Assembly: GCF_035083965.1 (NCBI RefSeq)
Contig: NC_089727.1
Coordinates: forward strand, 9,987,501-10,051,500
From: Branchiostoma lanceolatum
Lineage: Eukaryota; Chordata; Leptocardii; Amphioxiformes; Branchiostomatidae
Length of the DNA: 64,000 nt
Direction of reading: 5' to 3'
The notes under the pieces are model-generated. The model did no database searches, was not told the DNA's origin, and was given only the letters and a program-made list of their open reading frames with translations. Every line of letters begins with the position of its first letter. Position 1 is the stretch's first letter. Positions 37,501 to 64,000 of this stretch are shown here, one piece after another. Position numbers and translations under genes: made by a program.

Positions 37501-40500
37501 AGACAAAGATTACGAAATCCAGGTTCTCCGCGGCAGAACCCTGGTGAGTTTAGAATGGTATAACCTTCTGCATATATCTAATGTACCCGCTAGTGTGGCA
37601 ACGGAACCATCTGGTTGTTGCTGGCATGCTTTTGTTTTTGCAGTTACGAAGTGAAACAGTACTGGGATGTATATAGGTGCGGAATACACATTTCATGTGG
37701 CATACCTAATCTTACGTAACGTTAGCCTAAAAAAAAGCTAACATATACGAAATTTCATTTACTGAGAAATTACTGTCATTGTCAATGTATGTAACGTCTA
37801 AACCTTATATGTATATGTACATTTCTATACATATTCACGATCAAATAAACGTGTGTAGCTTTGATGGTGACAGTCAATTCTATCCTTCGATTTCAGAGAC
37901 AGTTTGCACAGATGGTCGACAGACTTCCAACTCCATCTATTTATGACAAGCACATCTTCTATGTAGACTTTCACCAGTAAGTACTCAATGTCCCATGATT
38001 AACCGCTGTAAAATTTCAGTCGTTGAACATGTAGGACTCCTGGTGGAAATTTTCCAATGCCGATAATGTATTAATTATGGTTTCATGATCACTTATCAAA
38101 CAGTCAAATTTCAACAGCATTTACAATAAACTGTATTTTCAACACATATTTTCTGCTATAAGACAAGTTGGTGTTCCTATAGACAAACTCAATCTCTAGT
38201 TCAGGCACAAGCGCAGATCACAGTATTTGATTGCGTTGTGTTGTGTTGTGTTTAGCAAATCCATGAGAATGTTACGTTACGTGTTTCTCTGTCTACCCTT
38301 CAAGATTCGGGTTGCAGCAGCCCATGTACATTAACCTAGTCCGGGACCCCTTGGAGCAGCGGATCTCTGACTACTACTACATGCGGTTTGGCCGACACGG
38401 AGACAACCAAACGGCGCAACAACGCCAAAGACGAACAGACGAAGAAAGAGCACAGGTTTCAGTTTTACCCAAAGCTGTGAAGGACTCAGCGATACTTTTG
38501 ACACCGATCTAAAGATATATAACTAGTAATTGTAACATCGATTCTATAGGCCTGAATCTACAAGACAATGGTTTTTTTCTTTGACTCCAAATTATTTCGC
38601 TGTTTCTAAAATCCAATGCGAAAGAAACAACTTCTGCCACACACATTTAAACGTCTATTTTGTAAATGTAAATGCTATCTTGTAACAGTTTCTAAGCCTA
38701 CAGCTGTTTCTGAAACGCTATGAAGAGTACAAGGCTACAGCAAAGTACAATTAAATGCAAAGTTAAAGAGATATGTCATGGGGTGAAGAATAACCATCAC
38801 TTTGCTGTCCTTCCAGACATTTGATGAGTGTGTTTTCAACAACCTGTGGGAGTGCAATGCCTCTGGTGCCAAAGGATTTCTGATGACCCAGTTTTTCTGT
38901 GGACAGGATTCTATATGCATGTACGTGCGGTGAGAAATCTAACAATTAGACATATCTCATTCAATAGACAACAAGAGTTCTACGACCTCATACCTTCGCC
39001 AAATGATTTTGACCTTTATGACTGACGTATTAGGAGTGTTTTTCATCAAATAAAAATCATACCAGTTGATCCTCCTCACCCAAATAACATAAGTTGTCCA
39101 AACCTCCTTGTTATGATTATGAGCTTAACAAAGAAGGTTATGCTAACATTTATCATCAATAATGCAAATAAGCTCCTTATTAGCATAATTTGATTCAATG
39201 GTGTTCACATTCACACAACTTCTAAATACCACAAGTATGAAATTGCCGTTATTTACTAGTATGGAATGATAGTAGTTTCTCATTAATTATGCAAATTAGG
39301 CCTACATTTGCATAATGTCTATCTATTGACATTCCCCTCTTCCTCAGTTACAAATGTCACATATTTGAATAGTCATATCATGGAACACAGCAGGTTTTTA
39401 AAATTGCCTCATTAATTATAATCTGATTTGCATAATTATCATCCAATCATACAAAGCATCACGTAAGCTATCTACATACCAAAAATCATGACCATCCATC
39501 AAGCCCATCTCGAGTTATAGTATTTTCTCATTAATTATGTAAATGAGGTTCTCATTTGCATCGCTGATATCTATTAATATTTCTCTCTTCCTCAGTTACA
39601 TATGTCACATGTTTGCGAGTCCTATCATGGAAATTGATGGATGTATAAACTTTCCTCATTAATTATGCAAATTAGTTACTGATTTGCATAATAAGTATCC
39701 AATCATGTACATCATCGCTCAAGCTATGTACTTGCAAAAAATCATGACCTTCCATCAAGCCCTTCTTGAGTTATTCCCTTTCAAAGTCTGAAGCAAAACC
39801 TGCCCCTGCAGTTCCAAAAAAGTTGCTAGGGGGCCCAAACCTATACCACTCACTCTCTGCCCAACGAGCTATCTACCACTCAAAAATCAGTTCCATAGCA
39901 TGTCCACAACACGAGATATCATAACAGGAAGTTCCGCTGCAGTACCGTAACAAGCCGCTAGGGGGCCCAAAATCTAATCATTTTCAGGTTTCATCGAGAC
40001 CTACCAACATACCAAATACCAAGACAATCCTTCCAAGAATTCTCGACTTATCGTGTTCACTAACAGACACACAGACATGCTCGGTAAAAAAAACCTTCTC
40101 GGCGAAGGTACATTCCACACCAATGAATACAGCTGGCTGACAGCCAATTTGTCCCATGGCCCAGTAACTGACGTTTCCTGCCTGCTTCATGACCCCTCAT
40201 GACCAACTTTGCACCCCTGCCCGTATCAATATCCCTTAAAACAACACAGCCCACACGTTGCAACCAGAACGCATAGTAAGAGCATACAATTTGACACATT
40301 TTTACACTTTTCTCGTTAATTATGCAAAACACTTCGCCCAAAATCTAATCATCTTGAGATTTCCCACATACACACCGACACACCAACTACGACAACAAAC
40401 CATCCAGGCGTTCTCGACTTATTCTGTTCACTAACAGACACACAGACAAGCACCATCGAATAACCTTCTCGACGAAATTTCGTCGCGAAGGCAACAACTC

Positions 40501-41386
40501 AGCACGAAAAAAACATTATGAAGAAGTTTCATAGGACAAATAAAGTCTGCAGATATAAAGCACCTCAAGTCAAGGCCTATCGCGAATTCCATTTTCAGAG
40601 TTCTCTGCTGCTAAATGCCTTCTCCACAAATTTTGAAACTGTAACAATTGTTGTATGATTACGTTCTAACGTGGCAAATCGTTGTTGTAATTGTAAACTC
40701 ACGTGATGTTACAGTGTTGTTGTCATTAATCAGGAGAGCTTTGTTCTAGGGAGCCTTCCCAGATGGCAGTGGGAAGAGCCAAAGAGAACATCAGGAGACA
40801 TTACACTGTGGTCGGGGTACTGGAGGAGTTCAGCAGCTTCCTGAAGGTCCTGGAGGTGGTCATGCCGCAGTTCTTCCGTGGAGCCCAGGACACATGGCGG
40901 GAAATTGGTAGGTAGTATTTATTAATGGAAGCGCAAAGATGGGGGACAAGCCTACATGAAACTCTGGATTTGGTTGTTCACCGTTGTTGTAATGGTTTTG
41001 GATGAAACACTGACTATTGCAATGTGCTATAAAATATAATATATGGAATTGGATGTGTATAGAAAGACGAAAGCGGATGTACAAATTGATGAAGATTTTA
41101 GTAACGCGGATTTGAGTGAGGTGAGGTAACAAAGAATAGACGTCCAAGAAGTGGCTGTGATCGTTATACATGCAGTCAATTGCTCATGATGGTACGTTTC
41201 CCGACACATTTGTTTTACATTCCAGAGTCGCAGCAAATGGAACGCCAGAAAACGGCCAAAAAGATACCCCCTTCTGAGAAGGCTCGGGATATTATGAGAC
41301 AAAGATTGCACCTGGACTATCAAGTGTACGACTTTATAAAGGAGAGATTCCACATGCAGAAAACACAGCTAGGAATAAAGGACTGA
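34572..41386 (+). CDS. UST-like: UST-like 2-O-sulfotransferase gene C (330 aa)
   Basis: Exons: 34572-34674, 37308-37543, 37897-37976, 38305-38455, 38817-38920, 40750-40907, 41226-41386; 993 nt, phases as in A. ATG 34572 is used because the nearby ATG 34561 is out of frame. Residues about 11-25 form the signal anchor. Motifs: [11 protein letters not shown] (PAPS), DKHIFYVDF (catalytic His, CAC at 37951), [10 protein letters not shown] (3'-phosphate), and both Cys pairs (DECVFNNLWEC and FFCGQDSIC). Potential N-glycosylation sites are NHS, NQT and NAS. Introns 1 and 5 are swollen by interspersed repeats. Function as for A by family; GAG substrate specificity cannot be read from sequence. Confidence 0.93.
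34780..36730. repeat. Cluster of interspersed AT-rich repeats in intron 1 of gene C
   Basis: Repeated blocks contain attatgcaaattag and its complement (for example near 35080, 36005 and 36025), followed by phrases such as aaaatcatgacgatccgtc and ctagagggcccaaac. It ends near 36730 with a block related to the cggcgaaggta-type repeats found also at 40.0-40.5 kb and 50.4-50.7 kb. Confidence 0.6.
38940..40500. repeat. Cluster of the same interspersed repeats in intron 5 of gene C
   Basis: Several copies of cattaattatgcaaatta and tttgcataat are followed by ctagggggcccaaa blocks. Two tail blocks read actaacagacacacagaca then ccttctcggcgaaggta (about 40050-40110) and ccttctcgacgaaatttcg (about 40420-40495). 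No coding exon lies inside. Confidence 0.6.
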
Positions 41387-42669: not shown

Positions 42670-45600
42670 ATGGCAACATTCCAGGTGGCCAGGCCTTTAC
42701 TCTCCTTCGTCGCCTTCTCTGTAGTGATTGCACTGTGGACGATACCATATCTCCATTACAACTTTAAGACAGGTACGACTTTAGCCACTACAATTCTGGT
42801 GAAGGTCCAAGGTGGGGGGTGTGACTGCTTCAGGACTTGACTCGGTCGTCTTCCCGACCTCAATGCACACGTACTTTCAATGGTTTTCGGCAGTCGTGAA
42901 ACTCGTGACGCCAGTTTGAAATTGTACAAGACCAATGGTGTCTATCACTAATTTCCGTTGTATACTTCCATTGACATTGATCTGTCATTAAAGATATGCC
43001 TCAACTGACAGATCTGAATTCGTTTTGCTTCATTATCAGATAAATGGAGATATAGTTTTGGGTGTGTCTGTCTGTCTGTCTGTCTGTTTGTTTGTGTTTC
43101 CGCACCATTCCAGTCAGCATAACTCAAGAGCCTCTTAATGGATTACAATGATCTTTAGAATGTGGGCAGGTGTTGTGAAGCCGAAATTCAAGGTCGATTT
43201 TGGGCCCCCTGGTATGTCACCTTGGTACTGCAGCAGAACTTCAATTTTTGTATCTTTTGACCTGGACGTGCTGTGGTCTTGATTTTTGGGTGGCAGATAG
43301 CTTGTGATGTAATAAAGACGTGGTGTAGGTTTGGGCCTCCTAGCAGCTTCCTCTGGAACTGCAGGGGTGTTTTTGTGAAAATCTTCTTAGGAGAATAACT
43401 GAACAAAGGAACAACGGATTCCCATGATATTTAGTATGCAGGTAGCTTAGATAGAGATATACACAATGAAGTGCAAATTATGCTAATTGGGACTTAATTT
43501 GCATATCTAATGAGGAAAATCTATATTTGCAGTGTTTTCCATTTATAAGACTCAAATACATGTAACGTATGTAGTCTATGGAAAGTGGATCATCAACAGA
43601 TACCAATTATGCAAATAAATTCCTAATTTGCATAATTAATGCAAAACACCATATCTCATCTAAATTGGAAAATTATAGGACTGTCAATATGATACTTAGT
43701 ATGCAGGTAGCTTAGACAGAGATATACATAATGAAGTGCAAATTATGCTAATTGTGACTTTATTTGCATAATTAATGCAAAGACACCATAATTCATCAAA
43801 TTGGAAAATTATAGGACTGTCAATATTGCAACATGTGTAAGTTAGATAAAGGTGTTTATGGCCAAGCATATATTATGAAAATGTGTAAATCATTTGCATG
43901 AATAGAATTGTTCATGGAGATATGAGGTCGCGGAACTCTTGTTAATATTGATTTGCTATCTTAAGCACATTTCAAACCTTGTACCAGGTCCTGCGCACAA
44001 AGAGAACGCAGCATCGCTACATGGACATGTCCGGGACCAGAGACCATCGACCCTCTGGCCATGTTTCAATCATAACTACTCTATGGCTAAAGTCTTCTAC
44101 AATAGAGTGCCAAAGTGTGGAAGCAACAGCGTCATATCGCTCATCAGAAAACTGAAAGACAAGAATGGATTCGAATTCTTTGAAGATAAAACCTATTTGG
44201 CATATCAAGTGCTTCGCGGCAAGAACATGGTGAGTTAAATTTGTTCATGATCATATCATCGTTACTAAACTTGGTCGCATTATAACACTCTTAAAAATCT
44301 ACTACAGTCAGTTCCATATTCAGTACTGTGCGGGTGTTTGTTGCCTTTTGTTAACGAAACCTTTGTAACAATCTGAGATTAGTAACGGTTTTATTTCTAT
44401 CAATCTATTAATTTCTTTTTTACCTTCCAAATATCTGCGTATTCAAACATGTTAAAAGCATTTCTAACACAGAAGATGGTAGTTTTCAAACTATTGCAAC
44501 ATAGATTCACTATTTGTTTGAACATGTCCTGACATGTTAGAATTAGTTGTAATATTTGCAAATGGGTCAGTGGGCCGAGAAGAAAGACAAATATATTCAA
44601 TATTTGCTTTCAAGTATGGCAGATATGTATTCAATGGTGATTGGTGATTGACAATCAAAACTGCCTGTTGATATCGATAATCAATAATGGATTATACAGT
44701 ATGTCGTGTTATTTGTCGTATACTGCATTGTGTAGACGTCTTATGATTTAACGGTGGCCATCAAGTCAAGTCTTCCGTTTTCAGAGTAACTTCGTACAGA
44801 TGATCCATAAACTGCCAACTCCGTCTATCTACGAGCGGCACATCTTCTATGTGGACTTTCACCAGTGAGTATTCAAATCCATTCATCAGAAGGATCTACA
44901 CATTCACTCCATCGTCTACTGGAGTTGACGGTCTCATATATGAATATATCAAATGTAGATGATGTTAAACAAATCAAATGATAACCCTGAAACGACATCT
45001 TCGATAAACTATGCAGTCATCATACATTTTCCATCGCTTAATTCTGGTGTGCAGACAAGCTGGTGTTTAGATATCTCACGCTCATATCTATCTATTCATT
45101 AATTTCATTTCTGTTTTATTTAGCCAGGGTGGGCTATCTCAGTGAAAGACATTGCTTTACAGAGGGGCCCTGGAAGACATACATAACATGTGATATCAAC
45201 ATACGTGACATGTAACAAACTAGATGTATATATACAAATTCATACACAAAACTGACAAAGCCATAATCCATATATAGTCATAATCCACAGCCTGTCGTAA
45301 TCCACAGAATCATAGACAAGTGTGGCTTACAGTACTTGTCTTATTCAGCCATCTGATGAGAATGTGATACTAGTTACTGATCTAGCTTTCTATTCCGCAA
45401 GGTTCGGGTTGCAGCAGCCCATGTACATCAACTTGGTCCGGGACCCTTTAGAGCATCGGATCACCGGGTATTACTACATGCGGTTTGGGCGAGTGGGCCA
45501 GAACCTGACAGCCTACCAGAAGCACAGACGAACAGACGAACAGAAAGCACAGGTTTGACAGCTTCTTGATGACTGCCCAATTTCCTAAGATCCTAATCAC

Positions 45601-47067
45601 TTTGCTGTATTTCTAAGATTCCATACCAGACAATATTTGACGCGTTAAAATAGAAACCTACATTTCACTTGTTAATAATTTTCTCAGACATCATCGTATA
45701 ACACAATCATCCGTGGAGTTTAGGATGATAGTCACAGTATTAAACCTTCCTTTGTTGTCTTTCCAGACATTTGATGAGTGTGTCTTTAAAGACCTGTGGG
45801 AGTGTAGTGCCAAAGGTGCAAGAGCATTTGTGATGACCCAGTTCTTCTGTGGACATGATGATATATGCATGTGAGTTCTGTGTGATATGACAAGTGCTAC
45901 AGACATCTGCATACAATAGTCTAGCTAGCTAAAATAGCCAGGAAAAGATTAACGTGGTCGGCAAAAAGGTGAATGGTAATGGTTCTAATTCTATTATCGG
46001 ATTGTACTTTTAGGTAGTAAGAATGCACGTGTTGATATATGTATTGGTGTGTGGTTTAGGTTGGAGAGGAATTTGCACATTTGTTGTTGTATGTTAATAG
46101 GGTCTCCATTGTTATAATATTGTTGACAACCATCAGCAGTGCAAGTTTTATTTCAGGAAGTCTTCACGAAAGTGTCTGAGGACATGTAATTATAATCCGA
46201 TAAAGGCCCCACTCATAAGCAGCATGTACAAAATAGGAAAAAGAGTGAGAAAACGGATTTTTTTTTAAACTGTATCATTCTTACCGATGTAAAAATGAAA
46301 TCACACAGAATCATTTCTCTTTCTTAGGAAGCCTTCCCAGGCGGCAGTTGAGGTAGCCAAAGAGAACATCAGGAGACACTACGCTGTGGTCGGGGTACTG
46401 GAGGAGTTCAGCAGCTTCCTGAAGGTCCTGGAGGTGGTCATGCCGCAGTTCTTCCGCGGAGCTCAGGACAAGTGGCGGGAAATTGGTAGGTAGTGTTAAA
46501 CGATGTAGTCATAGCGGTGGTAGCGATGTAGTCATAGCGGTAAATATAACGTTGTGCGGGTTGTAGTAATAGGTTGTTGATGAAGGAATCTGTGTTGCAG
46601 TGAGTCATGCAACATGCGTAGAGGGTCTAGTGTCGGAAATATGAATGAATGAATTTATGGATGAGCTTTATTGCTCGACAATCGTACATGGTACAATGTA
46701 TTGTACAATGTACAAACAGCACTACAAAAGTAATCTATCCTACAATTATAACTATAGAATAAGCACGGCCACAAATCGTGGATAGTAGGGTAATGTTTTG
46801 AGACACGCGAGAGCCCAGTTATATACTGTTGATCGGGTACTTTTAAGAAGTGAGGCTCGATGCGTTTCCCATTATGTTTGTTGTACTTGTATTTCCGGCA
46901 TTTCAGAGACGAAGAAGATGAAAGACCAGAAAACGGCTAACAAGAGACCTGCTTCTGAAAAGGCGCGGAAAATTATGAGGGAGAGATTGCACATGGACTA
47001 TCAAGTGTACGACTTTATCAAGGAGAGATTCCACATGCAGAAAACACAGCTAGGAATCAAGGATTGA
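42670..47067 (+). CDS. UST-like: UST-like 2-O-sulfotransferase gene D (332 aa)
   Basis: Exons: 42670-42772, 43988-44229, 44785-44864, 45402-45552, 45767-45870, 46328-46485, 46907-47067; 999 nt, phases as in A. The signal anchor is LLSFVAFSVVIALW. Motifs: [11 protein letters not shown] (PAPS), ERHIFYVDF (catalytic His, CAC at 44839), [10 protein letters not shown] (3'-phosphate), DECVFKDLWEC and FFCGHDDIC. N-glycosylation sites NYS and NLT are possible. Only 64 nt separate the stop from the start of the tandem copy E, and no poly(A) signal lies there. The D transcript may therefore read on into E, and exon 2 could splice to either exon 3 copy, since the phase fits. Confidence 0.93.
43064..43093. 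repeat. (GTCT)n microsatellite in intron 1 of gene D
   Basis: This is a run of tgtctgtctgtctgtctg followed by tgtttgtttg. Confidence 0.85.
43160..43920 (-). repeat. Interspersed repeats in intron 1 of gene D, inverted relative to gene C
   Basis: The block reads gggccccctggtatg, then repeated caaattatgctaattg and tttgcataattaatgcaaa motifs. It is the minus-strand counterpart of the repeat cluster in gene C introns. Two adjacent sub-copies (near 43440 and 43690) share tatgcaggtagcttaga. Confidence 0.55.
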
Positions 47068-50033
47068 AGAAGAGAAAAAAACTGTTAAACTAAGTGCCAC
47101 CCAATGGTGTTCATCGTTAGCTCATCTATATAGCAGTTAAATTTGTTCATGATCATATCATCGTTACTAAACTTGGTCGCATTATAACACTCTTAAAAAT
47201 CTACTACAGTCAGTTCCATATTCAGTACTGTGCGGGTGTTTGTTGCGTTTTGTTAACGAAACCTTTGTAACAATCTGAGATTAGTAACGGTTTTATTTCT
47301 ATCAATCTATTAATTTCTTTTTTACCTTCCAAATATCTGCGTATTCAAACATGTTAAAAGCATTTCTAACACAGAAGATGGTAGTTTTCAAACTATTGCA
47401 ACATAGATTCACTATTTGTTTGAACATGTCCTGACATGTTAGAATTAGTTGTAATATTTGCAAATGGGTCAGTGGGCCGAGAAGAAAGACAAATATATTC
47501 AATATTTGCTTTCAAGTATGGCAGATATGTATTCAATGGTGATTGGTGATTGACAATCAAAACTGCCTGTTGATATCGATAATCAATAATGGATTATACA
47601 GTATGTCGTGTTATTTGTCGTATACTGCATTGTGTAGACGTCTTATGATTTAACGGTGGCCATCAAGTCAAGTCTTCCGTTTTCAGAGTAACTTCGTACA
47701 GATGATCCATAAACTGCCAACTCCGTCTATCTACGAGCGGCACATCTTCTATGTGGACTTTCACCAGTGAGTATTCAAATCCATTCATCAGAAGGATCTA
47801 CACATTCACTCCATCGTCTACTGGAGTTGACGGTCTCATATATGAATATATCAAATGTAGATGATGTTAAACAAATCAAATGATAACCCTGAAACGACAT
47901 CTTCGATAAACTATGCAGTCATCATACATTTTCCATCGCTTAATTCTGGTGTGCAGACAAGCTGGTGTTTAGATATCTCACGCTCATATCTATCTATTCA
48001 TTAATTTCATTTCTGTTTTATTTAGCCAGGGTGGGCTATCTCAGTGAAAGACATTGCTTTACAGAGGGGCCCTGGAAGACATACATAACATGTGATATCA
48101 ACATACGTGACATGTAACAAACTAGATGTATATATACAAATTCATACACAAAACTGACAAAGCCATAATCCATATATAGTCATAATCCACAGCCTGTCGT
48201 AATCCACAGAATCATAGACAAGTGTGGCTTACAGTACTTGTCTTATTCAGCCATCTGATGAGAATGTGATACTAGTTACTGATCTAGCTTTCTATTCCGC
48301 AAGGTTCGGGTTGCAGCAGCCCATGTACATCAACTTGGTCCGGGACCCTTTAGAGCATCGGATCACCGGGTATTACTACATGCGGTTTGGGCGAGTGGGC
48401 CAGAACCTGACAGCCTACCAGAAGCACAGACGAACAGACGAACAGAAAGCACAGGTTTGACAGCTTCTTGATGACTGCCCAATTTCCTAAGATCCTAATC
48501 ACTTTGCTGTATTTCTAAGATTCCATACCAGACAATATTTGACGCGTTAAAATAGAAACCTACATTTCACTTGTTAATAATTTTCTCAGACATCATCGTA
48601 TAACACAATCATCCGTGGAGTTTAGGATGATAGTCACAGTATTAAACCTTCCTTTGTTGTCTTTCCAGACATTTGATGAGTGTGTCTTTAAAGACCTGTG
48701 GGAGTATAGTGCCAAAGGTGCAAGAGCATTTGTGATGACCCAGTTCTTCTGTGGACATGATGATATATGCATGTGAGTTCTGTGTGATATGACAAGTGCT
48801 ACAGACATCTGCATACAATAGTCTAGCTAGCTAAAATAGCCAGGAAAAGATTAACGTGGTCGGCAAAAAGGTGAATGGTAATGGTTCTAATTCTATTATC
48901 GGATTGTACTTTTAGGTAGTAAGAATGCACGTGTTGATATATGTATTGGTGTGTGGTTTAGGTTGGAGAGGAATTTGCACATTTGTTGTTGTATGTTAAT
49001 AGGGTCTCCATTGTTATAATATTGTTGACAACCATCAGCAGTGCAAGTTTTATTTCAGGAAGTCTTCACGAAAGTGTCTGAGGACATGTAATTATAATCC
49101 GATAAAGGCCCCACTCATAAGCAGCATGTACAAAATAGGAAAAAGAGTGAGAAAACGGATTTTTTTTTAAACTGTATCATTCTTACCGATGTAAAAATGA
49201 AATCACACAGAATCATTTCTCTTTCTTAGGAAGCCTTCCCAGGCGGCAGTTGAGGTAGCCAAAGAGAACATCAGGAGACACTACGCTGTGGTCGGGGTAC
49301 TGGAGGAGTTCAGCAGCTTCCTGAAGGTCCTGGAGGTGGTCATGCCGCAGTTCTTCCGCGGAGCTCAGGACAAGTGGCGGGAAATTGGTAGGTAGTGTTA
49401 AACGATGTAGTCATAGCGGTGGTAGCGATGTAGTCATAGCGGTAAATATAACGTTGTGCGGGTTGTAGTAATAGGTTGTTGATGAAGGAATCTGTGTTGC
49501 AGTGAGTCATGCAACATGCGTAGAGGGTCTAGTGTCGGAAATATGAATGAATGAATTTATGGATGAGCTTTATTGCTCGACAATCGTACATGGTACAATG
49601 TATTGTACAATGTACAAACAGCACTACAAAAGTAATCTATCCTACAATTATAACTATAGAATAAGCACGGCCACAAATCGTGGATAGTAGGGTAATGTTT
49701 TGAGACACGCGAGAGCCCAGTTATATACTGTTGATCGGGTACTTTTAAGAAGTGAGGCTCGATGCGTTTCCCATTATGTTTGTTGTACTTGTATTTCCGG
49801 CATTTCAGAGACGAAGAAGATGAAAGACCAGAAAACGGCTAACAAGAGACCTGCTTCTGAAAAGGCGCGGAAAATTATGAGGGAGAGATTGCACATGGAC
49901 TATCAAGTGTACGACTTTATCAAGGAGAGATTCCACATGCAGAAAACACAGCTAGGAATCAAGGATTGAAGAAGAGAAAAAAACTGTTAAACTAAGTGCC
50001 ACCCAATGGTGTTCATCGTTAGCTCATCTATAT
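44233..50033 (+). repeat. Tandem duplication, 2,902-bp unit, two copies
   Basis: Bases 44233-47131 are repeated at 47135-50033. By eye I find only two differences: C at 44345 versus G at 47247, and G at 45804 versus A at 48706. The unit runs from just after gene D exon 2 to just after its stop codon. The junction carries three extra bases (agc) absent from either flank. The near identity indicates a very recent event. Confidence 0.93.
47687..49969 (+). pseudogene. Partial UST-like copy E: exons 3-7 of gene D, no exons 1-2
   Basis: Exons 47687-47766, 48304-48454, 48669-48772, 49230-49387 and 49809-49969 copy gene D exactly in structure and keep all splice sites and the stop. Exons 1 and 2, which hold the membrane anchor and the PAPS-binding PKCGS motif, are missing, so E alone cannot make an enzyme. 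The catalytic His codon is kept (47741). One base change turns the conserved WEC cysteine into Tyr (TAT at 48705-48707), removing one half of a predicted disulfide. Either it is a dead fragment or it serves as an alternative 3' half spliced from gene D exon 2. Confidence 0.85.
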
Positions 50034-50873: not shown

Positions 50874-53800
50874 ATGATGATGGCGGCTGGGGAGGTCAGG
50901 CTTTTCCTGGCCCTCATTGTTTTGGCTGGATTATGGACTGCGCTGCAATTGTATTACACCCCGGGACAAGGTACATATACTAGTCTATTCATCGTAGAGA
51001 CCACCTTATCAAGATGTTTATCAAGCAGTAGAGAAAGCGGAAGAGATTAATTTGCACGAAAATATAAGTCATTTGGTGACGTAAAATCCCGGGGGAACGT
51101 GTTAGACAACATTGACAACAACACCAGACTGTTTGGTTGATCTGTACGCTATTGTTATTGTACATAGTCATCAGTTGAATCTAAACGAGAAGCTTATTCT
51201 GTGTTACAATTATTGTGCAATAAACTTTGACTTGACTTGACTAGACTTGACCGTACAAACCTGTGGGCGAGACATTCGTTTTTATAAACCGACTTTAGCT
51301 AAACTTACGCAATCCTACATTTTCGCCATTACCATTAGAAGCGAGAGGCCGAACCTATCCACTACTTGTACGTGTACTATACTCGTCCGGGGTCGTACCA
51401 AATGGTGTGTATGTTTGTAAATATGTCTTTTTTGTGACCTGTACCTATAATTAGCTCAGCTGGGCAGAACATATACAATAAAGGTTTTATTAACCCCTAT
51501 TTACCCTGCATTTTTTTCTAACAAATGTATGTCAGAAATTCCATTTCCCTTCTCTTCTTGATATTTCCTCAAAAACTCTTTGTTTGATTTTCTGTCGACC
51601 TTGATAACTAGCCTAGTTTTTATCTGCTATCAGAATCTACAACTGAGCTAACGCCAGCGGCATTGAAGCAGAAATCAGTGGTGAACACAAGACTACGTGA
51701 CAGACCACTAGTTTTCTACAACAGAGTTCCAAAGTGTGGAAGCAACTCCATGAAAATTTTGCTAAGGGCAATAGCAAAGAACAATTACTTTGCCTTCCAT
51801 GAAGACAGGGTTTATGTGGTAGAAACATTTGAAGACGACGAGTTGGTAAGTGGACTGTGCTTGGTTTTGTAATCTTCCAGAAGCATGTATGCTTATATGT
51901 AGGATAAGGTGATATATAGGATGGGTGTGGATTGGTAATGCAGCAATCCACGAAACGCAACAAAAGCGTCTTCAGAATGGATGCCAATGTTGACTGTAAG
52001 TTTGTATTTCAGATAATAATTGCAGATATAAATGTAGTTTTCCTGCTGTTAGCGATTTTTTTTTCGAATATTAAACACACGCGTGTTTCTATGTTCCGTT
52101 TTCAGCAAATCTATGCAGACTTGGTCTACAGACTCCCGGCTCCTTCCATTTACGAGAAGCAGATATTCTATGTTGATTTTCAGAGGTGGGTATTTAAATG
52201 CATCCAATGGAAAATATAAAGTCATCTTAACATACGTCAAGTTCTTCATCTCACCTACAACGAAGACTCTTTTATGAAGTCCTATAAATATTTCAAACCA
52301 GATCACAGTTCCAACACTTAATGACTATTCCTTTAGACCAACAGCGGTACCCATCTATCACACAACCAGAGGCGAAACCTTATACATTTGTATGTATAAT
52401 TAAAGTTCGAGGGTCATCGAATGGTTCTGTTTCATGTATAATGGCAACCGTCAAATGTTGTTATTAGAGGTCTATCCGGGTTCGTCTACGATTTCTGTGT
52501 ACGTAACGTCTCTTCTTCTTACAGATTCGGTTTCCAACAGCCTTTGTATATCAACCTGGTCAGGGACCCGTTAGAAAGGCGCGTGTCTTGGTATTACTAC
52601 ATACGCTTTGGACGGGTGGGGCAAAGGGCAATACCGAGGAACTTTTCACAGCAGAGGATGGCACAGGTTTGTTGTATAAAGCGACAGTTATCTCTTGCAA
52701 AGCTATTTTTATATAGCCCGTCACACATTCAGCACCTTCCCATTCTTCAACCAATTTTCAAAATGTATAGTTGGCTGGCACAGACGACTTTAAAGACTAG
52801 CGGACAACCCCGCTGACCAACGCCCAACCACATATGACCCTGCTCACGACCAACTCCTAACCATGGTATGTATGTACGGGGAAGGTCGGGAAGCCATGGT
52901 CGACTATTAGTTACAGGAGCTTAATCAAAAGAGAAGCACCCTTCCAGTTAGCGAAAACAGCCGGAATTCAAATCTTCGACCTCGGCAGTATGGATCTTTC
53001 TTGTTGCCCAAGACTAATACCTAGCTATATAAAGTAAGTAACTTATATGTATTTTTTATAACTCCCTAGACATTCGATGAATGTGTCTTCAACAACGATT
53101 GGGAGTGCGATGCCGAGGGGAAAGAGGGTTTTCTGCTGACAAAGTTCTTCTGCGGACACGATCAGATATGCAGGTAATATGATCATGGCAACATCAACAC
53201 GCGATTTAAATGTCTATGTAAGTGTTCGAATGTAACTATCACATAGATCTAAATCTATAAGATACTGATCAAACTACGGCAGAGGACTATAATAAGCTTG
53301 GATTAACACAGCAGGAAGCACGCATGTATTTTCAGTCATACGTACTTTTGATTGACTCGTCCAGGCAGCCTTCCCAGATGGCAGTGGAAAGAGCTAAAGA
53401 GAACATCAGGAGACATTACACTGTGGTCGGGGTTCTGGAGGAGTTCAGCAGCTTCCTGAAGGTCCTGGAGGTGGTCATGCCACAGTTCTTCCGTGGAGCC
53501 CATGACACGTGGCAAGATCTAAACCAGCGTATGTCGCTCCGCGCTGTCCTGTTAACTACATTATACTGTATACGTATATACATGTACATATATACATATA
53601 GCAACACAATTTTAAAGTTGAAATTGAGTTGCTACATGTATACACGTAATATACTGTATTTGTTCAACGAACAATAAACAAACATGACCAGTAGTTGTGA
53701 TAACATGCAACCCGGCTTAGAACGGCTTTTGTAAGCTGCTTTGAGCTTTTCTAGGGTGAGGAGGATCTTATGACTTCATTTGTTGCATGTATACATAGAC

Positions 53801-54139
53801 TTCATCTCTTTTTGCACATTGCACTGTTAGAATGAGGAGAGCTGAGGCCAATGATTTACCCACACATAACATGATGGCATTGAAAAGGACAATCGTTAAT
53901 TCCTAACTACTTAGCAAGGATACCATGGATACAATAACATGCTGTGTTGTTTTACGTGTGTTGATTTCCATCTTTCAGAAAAAAATCTTCTGGAAGACCA
54001 AAGAACCATAAACAGATCCCCTCCATCTCCAAGAATTCGGAAGATAATGAGAGAAAGACTGAAGTTGGACTACCAAGTGTACTACTTCATAAGGGAGAGA
54101 TTCCACATGCAGAAAGCACGACTAGGAATCCAAGACTGA
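50874..54139 (+). CDS. UST-like: UST-like gene F with catalytic His replaced by Gln (319 aa)
   Basis: Exons: 50874-50970, 51634-51845, 52106-52185, 52525-52666, 53070-53173, 53365-53528, 53979-54139; 960 nt, phases as in A. Three ATGs in a row (50874, 50877, 50880) can start it. Signal anchor about residues 8-25 ([17 protein letters not shown]), then a very short stem. The PAPS motif [11 protein letters not shown] (Lys66), [10 protein letters not shown] and both Cys pairs are intact, but the base region reads EKQIFYVDF: Gln122 (CAG 52160-52162) replaces the His of A-D. All splice sites are good and there is no stop, so it seems selected. Best read as a pseudoenzyme or altered enzyme that may still bind PAPS or GAG. 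AATAAA at 54441. Confidence 0.92.
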
Positions 54140-55017
54140 TCAAGTAGACAACTGAAATCGTGATGATACGCTGCTACATGTACTATATAGTTATCCTCAG
54201 GGGTTTAGAGCTTCCAAATAAGACTATTGAAATTATGAATTCAAGAGTGATTTGCTGTATTTTGAACAGCACATTTTGGTCATTACTTTAGGTCTGTCAT
54301 GTATGTGCGTTAAGTCTAGAAGTTAGTATAGGTACTAGTAGTCAATGACTTGTACTTTAATCTTTTTGCAGTCATCATCAAATTAAAGTACCATTTTCCA
54401 GCATTGCATCCTTGTCTGAAGCAAATCACCATTATGTGCCAATAAAGCGAAGGAGTGTAACTGAACTTCAGTACAAAGTACATTACAATGGCAAAAATAA
54501 TGATTTCATTTACTGAAAAGCATGATACATGTATCTTTTTAATTCTAACTAAGATTGTTTGGCAAGCTGTCTTGTTTGAATGCAAGTCTTTTACTGATGA
54601 GGTCATGAATATATTACTGCATGTTGCAGTATGTTGCACTTTCAAGTTAACAACAGAATCAATAAAACACATCCCAGGGACAACAGAGTCTTTTATTTAT
54701 GCAGTTATCTTCTTGTTAAAATTTGCTTGCATGGATGCAATGGAGAATATTCAGGACTGTGTAACAGTGTAACCCATCATAATTGTATTAGATGTCACCA
54801 TGGCACCTCCGGGATTAACCTTTAATCAACTTGCCTTTATTTTTACAAACCAGGAATCATTTTAACGAACCATTAAAAAAAAGAAGTATTTCCATTCAAA
54901 TCCGTGCTTTTGCAACATTCGCGGTCTATGGGAGCGACTATCAACAGGAGCTAGTAAACAGGGAGAACAGGTTACCCAAGGTTATTGACCCGCCTTCGCT
55001 ACGTCATCAGGACGGCC
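54140..55017. other. Spacer between F and G, containing a copy of the GUF1 3' flank
   Basis: About 54180-54795 is homologous to 58280-58935, downstream of gene G. Shared phrases include taagtctagaagttagta, attatgtgccaataaagc and gcatggatgcaat. The homology ends close to the position of the GUF1 stop codon in the other copy, so the F/G duplication carried the GUF1 3' flank without its coding exon. Poly(A) signal of F at 54441-54446. Confidence 0.6.
55000..55007 (+). promoter_or_regulatory. CRE-like tacgtcat before gene G
   Basis: This is the counterpart of 50857-50864 before gene F. It lies 11 bases before the ATG within the conserved string cttcgctacgtcatca. Confidence 0.3.
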
Positions 55018-58000
55018 ATGATGGAGGCAGCTGGGGAGGTCACGTTTTTCTTCTCCCTCATTATTTCGACTGGATTATGGACTGCGCTGCAACTGTGTTA
55101 CACTCCGGGACAAGGTATACGTGCTAGTCTATTTTAAACCACATTATCAAGATGTCTATCGAGCATTAGATAAAGCTGACGATTACTTTGCACGAAAATC
55201 ATGGCAGGTTCGAACGTGTTAGACTGTGACAACAATAACATCAGGCTGCCTGGTTCAACTATAGTCGCTATTGGTATTGGATAGTCATCAGTTAGGGATA
55301 AACATGTTTTACAACATGTGACAGGACACGACACAAATGAATATTAGAACTATCTCCTCAAAAACTCTTCGTTTGATTCCATGTCGACCTTGATAACTAG
55401 TTTTATCTGCTATCAGAATCTACAGATGAGCGAACGTCAGCGGCACTGAAGCAGAAATCAGTGGTAGACACAAGACTACGTGACAAACGTCTAGTTTTCT
55501 ACAACAGAGTTCCGAAATGTGGAAGCACCTCCATGAAAATTTTGCTTAGGACAATAGCGAAGAACAAGTACTTTGCCTTCCATGAAGACAAAGTCTATGT
55601 AACAGAAACATTTGAAGACGACGAGTTGGTAAGTGCAAGGAGGTTATATAGACGTCTATATAACCTCCTTGGTAAGTGGAATGTCCTTTTTTTGTAATCT
55701 TCCAGAAGCATGTAACATATTTGTTATAACGTTACTATACTTTGATGTTTTAATGCATCAGCAATTTTGGTTGGAACTTAATTTATCATTATCTATTACC
55801 TTGTTATATTTGAATCGAACCTCTACGTAGATCTACTATTACTTGATTTATCTTAATTTATTACGAATGTTAAATTTGATTTTGGCCATGTGTTTTATTA
55901 CGTTTCATTTTTGTCGATGTCTTATACGCCTATGTTGGCAGGGTGGTGTGAGGTCGGAAGACATAGTTATAAAATTTAATTCATTCATATATGTAAGACA
56001 AGATAATATGATGGGTGTAGATTGCCGATGCAGCAATTATCGAAACACAACGAAAGTTTCTTTAGAATTGCTGCCTGTATTGCTCTTAAGTTTTTGTTTG
56101 AAACGAAATTGCAGATATAGTTTTCCAGTTGTTTTTTCAACGTTTATTACTGACGTTAATGGCAACTTACAAGTGTTTCTATGTTACGTTTTCAGCAAAT
56201 CTATACAGACTTGGTCTACAGACTATCGACTCCATGTATATATGAGAAGCAGATATTCTTTGTTGATTTTCGGAGGTGAGTATCTAAACGCTTCAAAACA
56301 GAAAATGTAAAGTTATCTTAACATACACTGGGTGTTTTCTTTACCTCACCGACAATGAAGAATCCTTTATGAAGTCCTAGAATCACCTCAAAACCAGATC
56401 ACAGTCACAAAACTTCATTACTCTTTCTTTAGACCAGCAGTGGTACCCATCAACCACACAGCCAAAGATGAAACCTTAAGGTCTGGGATCATCGAATGAT
56501 TCTGTTTCATGTATAATGACATCCACCAAATATTGTCATTAGAGGTCTATCTGGTTCGTGTATGAGATTTGTGTACGTAACGTCTCTTCTTCTTACAGAT
56601 TTGGTTTCCAACAGCCTTTGTATATCAACCTGGTCAGGGACCCGTTAGAAAGGCGCGTGTCTTGGTATTACTACATACGCTTTGGACGGGTGGGGCAAAG
56701 GGCAATACCGAGGAACTTTTCACAGCAGAAGATGACACAGGTTTGTTGTAGGTAAAGCGACAGTTATGTTAAGCAAAGCCTATTCTATAAAGCCCGTCAC
56801 ACATTCAGGACCTTCCAGCTCTTCAACCAAGGTCGGAGGTGGATTGGGATTAGCCTGGAATCCACCCTATTCTTGCTACAGTTTGCTCCCCTGATTGCAT
56901 CCAATCAAAATATGACATTCCAGTACGATACCTATAGTAGCTATATACAATAAGTCAGTTACATGTCTCTTTTATAAATCCCTAGACTTTCGATGAATGT
57001 GTCTTAAGCAACGATTGGGAGTGCGATGCCGAGGGGAAAGAGGGTTTTCTGCTGACAAAGTTTTTCTGTGGACACGATCAGATATGCAGGTAATATGATC
57101 ACATGTTCATGGCAACATCAACATGCAATGTATATGTAAGTGTTCGTGACGGAATCTATAAGACACTGGAATAAGAAAAATATAAATAACAAATTCCCAG
57201 AATAAGGGTGTTTGACCATTTCTGCAAGTATCGACACAACACCAGTGTTCAATGTCATATATTTGCTGCTTGACAAGATGTTCATTTCGAGGGTCTTCTC
57301 TTTAACCTCCTTGTTCATTTCCAACTGGATAAAACAACAGTAGAGATAAGCCTCGATTTCATAACCTGCCAAGTGACTTAAGATGTTAATTAACGACGTT
57401 GTCCTAGTTTCCTCATTATATTCTAACTGAGGTAAATGATCAAAATATGTCTGTAAGCTTGGATTAACCCAGCAGGAAGCACCCATTTATTCTCATACAT
57501 ACTTTTGAACTGTCCAGGCAACCTTCCCAGATGGCAGTGGAAAGAGCCAAAGAGAACATCAGGAGACATTACGCTGTGGTCGGGGTACTGGAGGAGTTCA
57601 GCAGCTTCCTGAAGGTCCTGGAGGTGGTCATGCCGCAGTTCTTCCGTGGAGCCCAGGACACGTGGCAAGATCTAAACCAGCGTATGTCACTTTCCGGTTA
57701 ACTACATTATACTGTATACATATATACATGGAGCAACTCAATTTCAAGTTGAAATTGAGTTGCTATTTCAAGTTGAAATTGAGTTGCTACATGTATATAA
57801 ATATACAGTCATTTTTGTTGTTCAAGGAACACTAAAGAAACTTGGCCAGTAGTTGTGATAACATACAACCTCTTAGAAAGGCTTTTGTAAGCTGCTTTGA
57901 ACTTTTCTAGGGTCAAGAGGATCTTATGACTGCATTTGTTAATCCCTTTTTGCACATTGCACTGTTATGAGGAGAGCTGATGACAGCATTGAAAAATTGC

Positions 58001-58253
58001 AATCTTTTGTTTGCATGTATTGACAAATTGAAAATATGATTATAACATACTGTTTTTATGATATACATTTGTTGATTTTTTCCAACTTTCAGAGACAAAT
58101 CTTCTGGAAGACCAAAGAACCATAAACAGATCCCCTCCATCTCCAAGAATTCGGAAGATAATGAGAGAAAGATTGAAGTTGGACTACCAAGTGTACTACT
58201 TCATAAGGGAGAGATTCCACATGCAGAAAGTACAACTAGGAATCAAAGACTGA
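55018..58253 (+). CDS. UST-like: UST-like gene G with catalytic His replaced by Gln (319 aa)
   Basis: Exons: 55018-55114, 55417-55628, 56196-56275, 56599-56740, 56986-57089, 57518-57681, 58093-58253; 960 nt, phases as in A. It is the closest relative of F. The base region reads EKQIFFVDF: Gln at CAG 56250-56252, as in F. PAPS motif [21 protein letters not shown] and both Cys pairs ([20 protein letters not shown]) are kept. Exon 4 is almost identical to F over coding bases while exon 3 has several replacements ([10 protein letters not shown]). A palindrome in intron 2 duplicates the exon 2 splice donor (see findings). AATAAA at 58552. The gene ends tail-to-tail with GUF1, with 676 nt between the two stop codons. 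Confidence 0.92.
55636..55671. repeat. Perfect 36-bp palindrome beside the exon 2 donor of gene G
   Basis: The half caaggaggttatatagac is followed directly by its exact complement. The splice-donor string gtaagtg occurs on both sides (left 55629-55635, right 55672-55678). Gene F has a single donor and no palindrome at the equivalent place. Confidence 0.9.
57731..57789. repeat. Palindromic and tandem duplication in intron 6 of gene G
   Basis: The unit gttgaaattgagttgct occurs twice in tandem, and an inverted copy (agcaactcaatttcaa) precedes it. Gene F has one copy at the equivalent place (near 53615). Confidence 0.85.
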
Positions 58254-58929: not shown

Positions 58930-61900
58930 TCATCTCTTTAATACAGATATGAAGGCATCTTTTGGAATATCGACATTTCCAATCTTCTTCATCCTCTTCT
59001 TACCCTCTGCCTGCCTCTTAAGAAGTTTCATCTTTCTGGATATGTCTCCACCATACTGGACAAGGAAAGAACATTGTCAAGGAACAGCTGGGAAGCGAAT
59101 CTTCTCAAAATGTCTTACCAATTCAGAAGTTAAATTCAAAACAGCAGGATGATTTATGTTAGACTTACACATTTTGCCAACACATTCTTCTTGTAGGCCT
59201 TTATCCTGGAATAAAGAACACATGGTTTAAGTACTGCATTAAACTAAAGTGGAGCTTTAATGGCAAGAAAATATAAAAAGAATAGGATAAAAACACACGT
59301 GTCTACATACGTTTCCCTGGCAATGACTTTGCCTCCCAAGGCTGCCTGAATGATGACTTCATACAGCTGTCTTGGGATGACGTTCTTTAGTTTAGAAGCA
59401 AGACTCTTTCCCACTGAATAGGCCTTGTCTTTGTGCACAATGGTGGACAGTTCGTTGATGACTTGACCATTGAGAAGGATGTCCAGCTTGACCAGTTCTG
59501 CTGGTTCATAGCTGTGGTCCTCGTAATCAAAACTAAGTAATGAAAAAGCAAATTCTTTGTATTCAAAGAGAGGAAATCACTACTACTTATACACCTGCCT
59601 TAACTTTTCCAAATTGTGCAGCTAATTGTCCATTTATGTATCAAGATGCAAACCTTTAATTTGTCTTTTAACAAGGCATAGATGTTTAACAAGCATATAT
59701 GAGGGACTCCAGATTTACATTACCCTCCACACAGGTAATTGATCAGCCACCAAGTCCACAAACTCTAAATGACATTTTCTGCAGTTCTATGCCTGGTGTT
59801 CTCTTAATCATCACGCAATCCATAGGGATTATTTAAATACATGTATATGATTGACATTCATACCTTGCATAGCCTGAAGTGATTGACTTGAGCAGGTCGT
59901 AAAAGTCCACCACTATCTCGTTGAGTGGCAGCCTGTACTTCAGCAGCACCCGTGATGTGTCAATGTAAGTAAAGTCCACTTGTTCTCCTCTTTTGGTCTG
60001 GAAGTAATGTTGTAGGTGGTGAATACTGGAAGGCTTGTGAAAGCTTTCATTTTAACCTCAATTAACATTAATCCCCCAGGATACATGAATTTGCCACTTT
60101 GAAGAACAGTGCGGTTGAGAGCTCTTTCGTGCAGCACCCCCAGGCATGCACAGTTTAGATATACTGGAGTGTATTATCCCGGAAAATGTTGGGTTCCAAA
60201 TCTGTTTGGGTGTATCTTTTCATGGTGGCGGAATTATGTAACCTGGTTGAATTATGTTAGTAGATGTTACTACAATACAAATTCTTGATACTTGATTCTT
60301 TACTTTGTTAGAATCTTTTCTGTAGAATCTCACTTTCACTAGGATTAACATTACATTGGACATGATGACTTATAGAGACATACTAGTATAACAGATGTCT
60401 ACAGTACTCCAAAAAGGCATAAATAAGGCATGAATATTAGCAACCACAGCTGGAAGACACATTGTACATGTTTCAAGTCTTTCTCTCTATCAATGAAAAT
60501 CACATTCTTGTAACATCAATGCCAAGTCAATCCTGCAAATACTATAAATCATTCAACATTTTCCAAAACTTATGCTTACATTAATTGTTACATTGATCTT
60601 TCTGAAAGCAAAGCCACTTCTATCAGAAGTCCATGACTGTTCTCACCTCACAGAGGCTGAATATCTTGTTGAGGTGAACGTCTGGTGTGATGATGGTTCC
60701 CATGACGATAGGCTCCAGGTACTCCGCAACATCTTTCTTCTCTGGGAACTACATTGTACATGTCATGGAACAGGGTCGTGTTGGAACTTCATACAGCATA
60801 ACAGACTGTACATTCAAAGGCTATACCCAACTTGTCCTAGTCTTTGTAGAAATTGAACATAAGCCTATTTCCACATCTAGAGCTCCATTCCTGTCAGTGT
60901 TGCAGTTGTCAATGTCAAATGCCAACCTAGATCATACAGTTATCTGTTCAATGAGAGCAAAATGTTGTATATGCAATAGTACTGAATACTCTCATCAGGT
61001 ATAAACATAATATCTAAGAGGTTGACATGTTGATACGCCAAAAAACAGTTACTCAAGCAACTAGATAAAATTTTGAAACAGATGTTTCAGACAGCATCTG
61101 CTATCTTTCGTCAGTGACTAAAGGACAGAACTGGAGAACCAGGTTTTATAGACTCTAAATTGAAATGTCAATTAGGTGAAGACAATTCAGGATGGTTCAA
61201 GTCGAGACAAGGTTGACATATTGATATGGTTTTCTGGATAAATATCTGTTTAGTCACAACTGAAAATGAAGTTGAAGTTCACCTCTGCTGGGCTGTAGAT
61301 GGTGATCTCGTCTGTCCTGTACTGCTTGATGAGTTTCTCACTGCTCAGACGAGCTGGGGACACACATCAAAAACTCTTTTTGTGCAATAGACTGGAGAGC
61401 TACATGTAACCAACATAAGTGATGTTCCTTCGTGCAAGAGAGCAACAAGTGAGCTTCAGCAGTTGTAACAGTGTGGTTATGCACAAGGTGAGTAGTAGTC
61501 TCCTGACTCCCGGGATCAACCCAGGCCAGGCAGCACACAAACCTAATGCACACCACATTAGGCTAAAAGTGGAGCTTGAACCACACTGTTACACTAAGCC
61601 CCCCCCCTTCTATTTTCAGATTTGTCCTTGAAGTCCTCAAAGAGTTCAATATCCCTGTGTAGCACTTTTTGCCATTTCTCACAGGGCTGGTGTGGGAACC
61701 ACTGAAACACACAAGGCGAGTAGTGAAGCCTCCTGGCTCCCAGCAACAAAGCCGGGCCGCCAGCCACAAACCCAACGCACTTACCACAAGGCTAAAAGGT
61801 CCGAACCCATTTGACTGGTCAGTAAGTGGTGCTTGAACAACACTGTTACACAGTGGAGAAGTTTGCCTGTATTTCCCCACCTTTACATGGAACACTTGGA

Positions 61901-63915
61901 GTGGTGGCTATGGCAGTGGCGTTGTACTCCTGCTCTAGCCTCTGGTTGAAGACTTCCATGTGCAGCAGTCCCAGGAAGCCTAGCCTGAACCCCAGGCCTA
62001 GAGCAGCGCTGTTTTGGGGTGACAGCAAAGTGAAAGGACTAAATATTGATCCTTGTGATATTGTCCTTCAGCCTGTACAATCATAATAAAACAGACAAAA
62101 TTACTTGTCTCATTCTCTTACGCATAACCTTGCCAGTGGCATATACAACATACCTTGGTGAGGCTCTATAAACTAGCTTGAGGCTTCCACTTTTGTGGGT
62201 GAAGCCTCTAACCTGAGCCATCAGCCAATCAGAGAATCGCCTGTTTTGTCTTCCATTTCACATTGTGAAAAACCCGAATAAACAAATTAATCTTTTCTTT
62301 AGGTTAAGCTACAAAAGTAGAAACCTCAGCCCGGTTTTGCAGAGCCTCTTTTAAGGTATTTTGTACAGGTTGTGGGGGAGGCTCTGCATAGGAGAATGGT
62401 AGGTACTGGGATGTTTCTATTTTCAACATACAGTAATCATGTCTGAAGATATCAATCTTCTTTAGGTGCATGCTGTAAGCTGAGAAAGATTAACAGTTTT
62501 ACTAGCACAGAACAATTGTGAGGTGCACTTTTGTCTTAAGCATTGACAAAAAAAAAGATAAGCTGCAATACTTCTCCCTATCACTAGAGAGCTCTATCCA
62601 TCTTCTCTAATTCTTCCTTACCTGCTGTCCTTAGCAACAGTGACACTGGAGTCATTTAAGGTCAATCTGTCAACAGCGACCTTCAGGTCACGGTACTCTG
62701 ACTGGTCCATGGGGAAAATTCCTCCAAACACCTTGAAAATACACATGACAGTCTTGCTTTTGTAACTGGAAAAGTGAGATGAGCCCAGCCGCATTAGACA
62801 TTTAGCTTTTAAAATCAGATTCTGAAAAACATGGAACAAAGTACACTTACTGTATGACATTGTATACTTTTGTATGCTCACTTCAAATATACTTGTACCA
62901 CTTTGCCTGCTCTACATGATTATGTTTATAATAATACTACTGGCATAATGTTTTTCAAGCTCAGGTTTGGAATGTAACAGAATAGAAACTTTCAATAAGG
63001 TCTGAATTCGAAGTAAATGCGTCAGTTAAAACTTCAGTAAATATAAGTCATGACACAATCTTGACAAAACACTACATTCATTGACTGAAAGATGATACAA
63101 AAACAGAGCAGGACTCTACCATGGGCTTGGCAGGTTTGAAGCCAGGTAGCGGCTCCACAGGTGAGGCAGACAGGTGTAAGGTGTCACCTATCCTGGCCTC
63201 CTGGATAGACTTCATCCCTGCGATCAGGTAACCTACCTGGCCTGCATGTCTGGAGGGGGGAGAGGAGAAAGATTACCTTTTCTAGTCTTCAAATGTATTC
63301 AATTTTGTTCTGAATCTTGAGAAGAGGTAACTTTGAAAAAGTAATGATGATGGGACAAAAGAAAAAGCTTACTAATCCCCATACAGATACAGATCTACTA
63401 GTTTGGTGGATTTCAAGTTATTCAGCTCTTATACTTGCTTATGCTTATAAAGCTGTAGTAGTTGTGGTGATATTTTGTCATTGTTTGGGATGGGAGAAGA
63501 AGAAGAAACAAACCTAGAACAATAAGTTTACTTCTGTGGATGTAAACATCAAACATGCAGGATTCCACTCTTATAAATATTTCAAACATCTTCTTTCTCA
63601 TCATAATAGTTTATGTATTACTTCTCACTTCACATAAAAATAGAGATATTATGTAAGATAAGTTTCTACAGCAGTGTTTCTATTTCAGTAGTTTATAAAC
63701 ATGGTACTAACAGTTCCTGAGTAGACTGTTGGTCAGGGCTCATGATCCCTACTTCCTGCACCTCGTACGACTTGTTGCTGTGGGCAGAGCTGATCTTGTC
63801 CCCCTGCTGAACCTTCCCGTCTATAACTGCCACGTTGGTGACCGCACCGCGGAAGTGGTTGTACGTAGAGTCAAATAGGAGGGCCTTCCAGGGTTTGCTG
63901 TGGTCAGAGTTTGGC
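58930..63915 (-). CDS. GUF1: Translation factor GUF1 (mitochondrial LepA/EF4), C-terminal 417 aa, truncated by window edge
   Basis: LepA-family GTPase, acting on mitochondrial ribosomes. Ten exons (minus strand, 5' to 3'): 63712-63915, 63120-63249, 62622-62731, 61881-62008, 61283-61353, 60647-60739, 59864-59997, 59311-59532, 59169-59205, 58930-59055; all phases agree. The visible part covers the beta-barrel domain ([16 protein letters not shown], then GQVGYLIAG and [14 protein letters not shown]), the EF-G-like domains ([26 protein letters not shown]-like segment; GYASFDYED) and the LepA-specific C-terminal domain ([47 protein letters not shown]). The GTP-binding G domain and transit peptide lie right of the window; the first exon begins at phase 2. 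Identification is certain from near-universal LepA motifs. Confidence 0.96.
61440..61860. repeat. Pair of related repeats in a GUF1 intron
   Basis: Two segments (about 61440-61600 and 61690-61860) share the order: caaggtgagtagt-like start, cctcctgactccc or cctcctggctccc, ccag, cacaaacc, aaggctaaaa or taggctaaaa, then gcttgaaccacactgttaca-like end. They are diverged direct copies of one short interspersed repeat. Confidence 0.6.
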
Positions 63916-64000
63916 CTGAGTGACAGAAATTGTGTAACGTTACATATTGTACAACGCTTGCAGGATCAGGTGCTTTTTAGCTATTTAGAAACAGTAAAAA

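Follow-up and report, generated by a model that had tools for sequence, protein, structure and literature searches.

The genes considered here are related to the sulfotransferase HS2ST, in which His142 has been named the catalytic residue or putative catalytic base. The H142A mutant of HS2ST is apparently folded, binds both 3′-phosphoadenosine-5′-phosphosulfate (PAPS) and heparin, and has less than 1% of wild-type activity (PMC6094399). We analysed a 64-kb stretch of Branchiostoma lanceolatum DNA (contig NC_089727.1, positions 9,987,501 to 10,051,500; hereafter the window, in whose numbering all coordinates are given), in which sulfotransferase genes of the HS2ST/UST type form a tandem cluster along the + strand. 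Two of these genes, F and G, encode Gln at the position of this His and, by analogy with the HS2ST mutant, are likely to have lost canonical 2-O-sulfotransferase activity.

HS2ST is a trimer, and all mutants reported in PMC6081452 are homotrimeric. Its authors summarize the binding of H142A to their test hexasaccharides as about 2–3-fold tighter than that of the wild type, although the values in their Table 1 vary by compound, and R189A binds the hexasaccharides less well than the wild type. According to the same study, the 6-O-sulfate of one ligand had been predicted to clash sterically with Pro82/Tyr173 of HS2ST, and the Tyr173 position therefore faces the ligand. H106A and R189A are reported to shift the acceptor preference of the enzyme, and the preference of H106A for iduronate substrates implies that His106 takes part in substrate recognition (PMC12834895). 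In polysaccharide sulfotransferases the base is described as a conserved His, or as Glu in HS3ST1 and NST1 (PMC11625862).

A degenerate motif search with up to three mismatches gives seven matches in the window, all on the + strand, compared with a mean of 0.69 and a maximum of 3 in 100 dinucleotide shuffles. The codon at the catalytic position is CAC (His) in the matches at 22712–22734 (A), 31152–31174 (B), 37948–37970 (C), 44836–44858 (D) and 47738–47760 (E). It is CAG (Gln) in the matches starting at 52157 (F) and 56247 (G), where it occupies 52160–52162 and 56250–56252, respectively. An initial annotation of this DNA had reported the difference between A–D and F and G at exactly these coordinates; the seventh copy, E, which has His, comes in addition to the six copies that it named. 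Spliced models of six of the seven copies (A, B, C, D, F and G) are all open, with GT/AG at every intron, in line with the earlier description of intact splice sites and frames in F and G. Gene F (50874–54139) has seven exons at 50874–50970, 51634–51845, 52106–52185, 52525–52666, 53070–53173, 53365–53528 and 53979–54139. The seven exons of gene G (55018–58253) lie at 55018–55114, 55417–55628, 56196–56275, 56599–56740, 56986–57089, 57518–57681 and 58093–58253. Each gene encodes a protein of 319 residues with the Gln as residue 122, and the two proteins are 89% identical.

The Pfam domain Sulfotransfer_2 (PF03567) is present in all six modelled proteins (E ≤ 0.001) and is matched by F with 43.2 bits (cut-off 22; E 6.9e-11). 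The base His of the PF03567 seed is said in PMC11625862 to fall in a non-conserved region, so that the Pfam match is uninformative about the base. The only solved relatives detectable by sequence are two HS2ST entries, PDB 3F5F and 4NDZ. F matches HS2ST with an E value of 4.3e-40 in phmmer, over F residues 46–313, and of 1.6e-45 in a profile search that reported hits up to E 10; the six modelled proteins are 33–34% identical to the HS2ST fragment (F, 34%). The domain in F is preceded by a hydrophobic stretch encoded in exon 1, LFLALIVLAGLW, which may form an anchor-like N-terminus. The cluster may be nearer to UST than to HS2ST: UST shares a KCGS motif in the loop, and its RHVHFLNF sequence provides one His where F and G have Gln instead. 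No relative was found among 40 pattern matches in an alignment-based scan of viral contigs, or among 7 pattern matches in a corresponding scan of genome contigs.

Residue 122 of F lies opposite the second His of YHGHVSYLDF in chicken HS2ST in both the phmmer and the profile-search alignment, gap-free around the site; that His is residue 142 when the fragment is numbered from Arg80. At the level of sequence, the placement of Gln122 on the catalytic base of HS2ST, which the initial annotation had proposed, is solid. F and G lack the catalytic-base His, which is found in A–D and in the motif of E, and because HS2ST and five of the seven copies have His, the Gln is the derived state. Motif and window searches detect only one exon-3-like match per gene and thus no alternative exon encoding His. 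Two residues before Gln122, at the position of HS2ST His140, F and G have Glu (Glu120), as do A, B and D; C has Asp. Comparisons with A–D cover the common core (exons 2–7). Copy E, which was not modelled because exons 1–2 are absent, is excluded from all alignments and rates. HS2ST and A–D are identical at 65 positions, eight of which differ in F or G. Six carry the same change in both (L96I, L118F, F124Y, H142Q, R189F and K294R), one is changed in G only (N100K) and one in F only (K111R). With six of 65 invariant positions altered alike, a shared change is not in itself rare; what is notable is the position affected, that of the base.

The equivalents of HS2ST Arg80, Lys83, Arg164 and Ser172, in the 5′-phosphosulfate-binding loop (5′-PSB) and the 3′-phosphate-binding element (3′-PB), all persist in F and G. 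The cysteines C201, C209, C222 and C228 are retained as well, so that the PAPS residues and cysteines are indeed intact, as annotated. The PAPS-loop Lys corresponding to Lys83 is codon 66 of F (AAG, 51732–51734); at the Ser172 position, D has Thr. Residue 88 is His in F and G (CAT, 51798–51800 and 55581–55583) and Phe in all four of A–D, and is a candidate replacement base. It aligns with HS2ST His106 in the phmmer and profile alignments and with Leu105 in MAFFT. The HS2ST Tyr173 position is occupied by Trp152 in F and G (TGG, 52589–52591 and 56663–56665) and by Gly, Ala, Asp and Gly in A, B, C and D, respectively. At the residue 88 and Tyr173 positions, F and G thus appear closer to HS2ST than A–D are, though they are without its base.

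The loop around HS2ST Arg189 is also altered. Residue 170 is Phe in F and G (TTT, 52643–52645 and 56717–56719) and an invariant Arg in A–D. We considered R189F as a second lost active-site residue and dropped it: only MAFFT pairs Phe170 with Arg189, phmmer matches Arg189 to Arg168 in F, and in the profile search the loop shifts again, leaving its alignment ambiguous. In F and G, Phe170 lies inside an NFS sequon (52640–52648 in F). N-X-S/T sequons are found at differing places of the FGR-to-TFD(E)C loop also in B (31683–32125, across an intron), C (38405–38413), D (45502–45510) and G (56714–56722), with none in A, and a glycan attached there might influence acceptor access.

Between F and G there are 68 coding differences, 29 of them synonymous and 39 replacement changes; neutral evolution would predict about 108 replacements. 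The ratio of nonsynonymous to synonymous substitution rates (dN/dS, NG86) is 0.34 for the whole protein (bootstrap 0.20–0.55) and 0.24 when only the core is counted; core values for the remaining 14 paralogue pairs are 0.16–0.33. The exons of F and G are free of indels relative to each other, whereas their introns show 38 runs of gaps over 1674 aligned bases. We fitted a home-made codon model (GY94, F3x4) to 257 gap-free codons, or 203 without exon 6, on the single fixed topology ((F,G),B,(A,(C,D))). For the F and G tips jointly, the rate ratio omega is 0.275, and omega = 1 is rejected (twice the log-likelihood difference, 2ΔlnL, 16.3, p = 5e-5; without exon 6, 12.1, p = 5e-4). On the F–G stem omega is 0.37 (omega = 1 rejected, p = 3e-4), with a background of 0.25. 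A model with three classes (stem, tips and background) is not significantly better than one with a single omega (2ΔlnL 2.2, p = 0.14, 1 degree of freedom). The F–G pair is under purifying selection. Taken apart, the tips have an omega of 0.14 in F (p = 0.007, or 0.078 when exon 6 is left out) and of 0.54 in G, which is indistinguishable from neutral (p = 0.47); F therefore appears constrained and G may be relaxed. Selection after the loss of the base is supported for the pair and, with exon 6 included, for F, but not for G alone.

Synonymous divergence (dS) between F and G varies along the gene, with values of 0.20, 0.25, 0.40, 0.03, 0.19, 0.13 and 0.03 in exons 1 to 7. Synonymous differences number 9 at 115 sites in exons 4–7 and 19 at 86 sites in exons 1–3 (Fisher p = 0.007), and the later exons of the two genes look homogenised. 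Exon 3, which encodes the Gln, has the highest dS, and the two proteins also differ at six of its 26 residues. Because the Gln sits in the least homogenised exon (dS 0.40 compared with 0.03 in exons 4 and 7), it was most likely present before the F–G duplication, as the initial annotation had argued, and retained in both genes. We considered whether the shared Gln came from a recent conversion of exon 3 and rejected this, since exon 3 is the most divergent at synonymous sites.

Exon 6 is alike across the paralogues, with dS of 0.06–0.41 in all 15 pairs of the six modelled genes (for example 23590–23747, 40750–40907, 46328–46485, 53365–53528 and 57518–57681). Over five other exons compared in pairs other than F–G, 57 of 70 dS values are at least 0.9 or saturated, although some pairs have low values in exon 7 too. 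The likeness of exon 6 probably reflects exon-limited homogenisation by gene conversion. Exon 4 of F and G (52526–52666 and 56600–56740) is 98% identical with a dS of 0.03, whereas the introns on either side, 3 and 4, share 82% and 66% identity. Another tract confined to one exon, either homogenised or under synonymous constraint, would account for this.

The explanation that we favour, with about even confidence, is that F and G are PAPS- and glycosaminoglycan-binding proteins with little or no 2-O-sulfotransferase activity that are kept for a non-catalytic role. In the ancestor of F and G the general-base His became Gln (CAC to CAG), without loss of the Arg and Lys of the PAPS loop, the Arg and Ser for the 3′-phosphate, the cysteines or the C-terminus. 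Canonical 2-O-sulfation would thereby have been lost, if the low activity of HS2ST H142A is a guide. PAPS and a uronic-acid-containing chain would still be bound, as the binding by this mutant and the retained residues suggest, and sulfate transfer would be very poor. One could speculate that F and G occupy substrate or join mixed trimers with A–D and so tune the sulfation performed by the active paralogues. The constraint on the two proteins would then stem from this non-catalytic role. The proteins of the cluster may reside in the Golgi.

Compared with the HS2ST structures 3F5F and 4NDZ, F and G are alike in family, in Lys83, Arg164, Ser172 and the cysteines, in an aromatic residue at 173 and possibly in His106. 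They differ in lacking His142 and, as A–D do, His140, and in the altered loop near 189. The HS2ST H142A mutant loses the same side chain as F and G, binds PAPS and heparin and is trimeric (PMC6094399, PMC6081452). Unlike F and G, it is laboratory-made and has Ala rather than Gln, and F and G carry further substrate-facing changes.

Several points weigh against a non-catalytic role. The mutant measured for activity has Ala at 142, and those used in binding tests also Glu, Arg or Lys, rather than Gln, and all were made in HS2ST only. Retention of the PAPS residues fits ongoing catalysis no less well than it fits a dead enzyme, the G tip is not distinguishable from neutral, and Glu120 could in principle serve as a base. 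F and G also carry the new His88, which coincides with the substrate-recognition residue His106 in two of the three alignments. A different His in the active site would speak against the pseudoenzymes suggested by the initial annotation, and the alignments leave His88 divided between His106 and, in MAFFT, Leu105. Of that suggestion, the loss of a residue essential in HS2ST stands; pseudoenzyme status itself we infer, and it is not proven, given the new His88. A serious though less likely alternative is that both proteins still transfer sulfate through a re-wired site, in which His88 or Glu120 would act as the base and an acceptor pocket remodelled by Trp at 173 and the altered 189 loop would accept a different substrate. 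Such an enzyme would be in keeping with the restriction of His88 to F and G, the intact PAPS residues and the concentration of several changes at substrate-facing HS2ST places (106, 173 and possibly 189). It would also fit the effect of H106A and R189A on acceptor preference (PMC12834895) and the reported use of Glu as base in HS3ST1 and NST1 (PMC11625862). It is opposed by the MAFFT placement of His88 and by HS2ST itself, which has His106 and yet is less than 1% active as H142A (PMC6094399). His106 is thus no rescue in HS2ST, though the pocket residues of F and G differ.

It is rather unlikely that F and G, or G by itself, have become redundant duplicates, with constraint relaxed and loss ahead, and that the Gln is one of many neutral changes. 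This is more plausible for G than for F: the omega of the G tip does not differ from 1, and G alone alters residues that are invariant in A–D and F (N83K, P114S and S117C). Change at eight of the 65 invariant positions and a stem omega nominally above the background (three-class model, p = 0.14) would also fit relaxation. Neutrality is nevertheless rejected for the pair and for the stem, the F tip has a low omega (albeit with p = 0.078 once exon 6 is removed), and F and G contain no stop codons and no exon indels. It is highly improbable that a His is masked by an error of sequencing or assembly or by an incorrect exon model. The cluster does contain a suspiciously exact duplicate, copy E, which may be an assembly artefact, but F and G both have Gln despite their 68 coding differences, in a clean motif with intact frame and splice sites and one exon-3-like match per gene.

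The His-bearing copies lie upstream of F on the same strand. The cores of A (22150–24400), B (30560–33066), C (37308–41386) and D (43988–47067) comprise exons 2–7, with provisional 5′ limits. Among the His copies, B diverges most and is without the conserved FG after the motif, reading DFPLLDAEQP where the others have DFxxFGxQQP (31170–31556, across intron 3). Copy E (47135–50033) consists of exons 3–7 only and is a 2899-bp tandem duplicate of D (44233–47131) that begins just beyond the end of exon 2 of D, with two mismatches (99.93% identity). One of these (45804 in D, 48706 in E) changes Cys in D (WECSAK) to Tyr in E (WEYSAK). Either a partial duplication of very recent date or an artefact of assembly could explain E. 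The − strand downstream of the cluster carries exons of a LepA/GUF1-type translation GTPase (59247–59576 and 63696–63965; PF06421, E 1.7e-18), in which an EF-G domain 2 match is below the cut-off.

Pseudosulfotransferases have already been named as a class (PMC9539457). Among the matches listed in a search of open-access literature by titles and abstract starts, there is no glycosaminoglycan sulfotransferase pseudoenzyme and no mention of these lancelet genes, which weakly supports the novelty of F and G. SULT4A1 is similar in being a conserved sulfotransferase paralogue for which PAPS-dependent activity is reported never to have been described (PMC11275347); it differs as an orphan cytosolic sulfotransferase rather than a Golgi glycosaminoglycan enzyme. 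The deoxyhypusine synthase of trypanosomatids is reported to have a dead paralogue that activates its partner in a mixed oligomer (PMC3663545). It is a precedent from an unrelated enzyme, and for F and G mixed oligomers are purely a proposal.

We tentatively raise two more specific scenarios, neither of which we consider probable: in a re-wiring maintained by selection, the base may have moved to His88, placed where HS2ST has His106, which together with the Trp at 173 would give a new acceptor specificity, or F and G may be non-catalytic subunits that set the sulfation pattern in mixed trimers with A–D. The side-by-side occurrence of His-bearing and base-less copies constitutes a natural experiment. 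The cluster bears on the need for the His142 position in this branch of the sulfotransferases, on His88 as a possible substitute, and on whether base-less copies may tune glycosaminoglycan sulfation.

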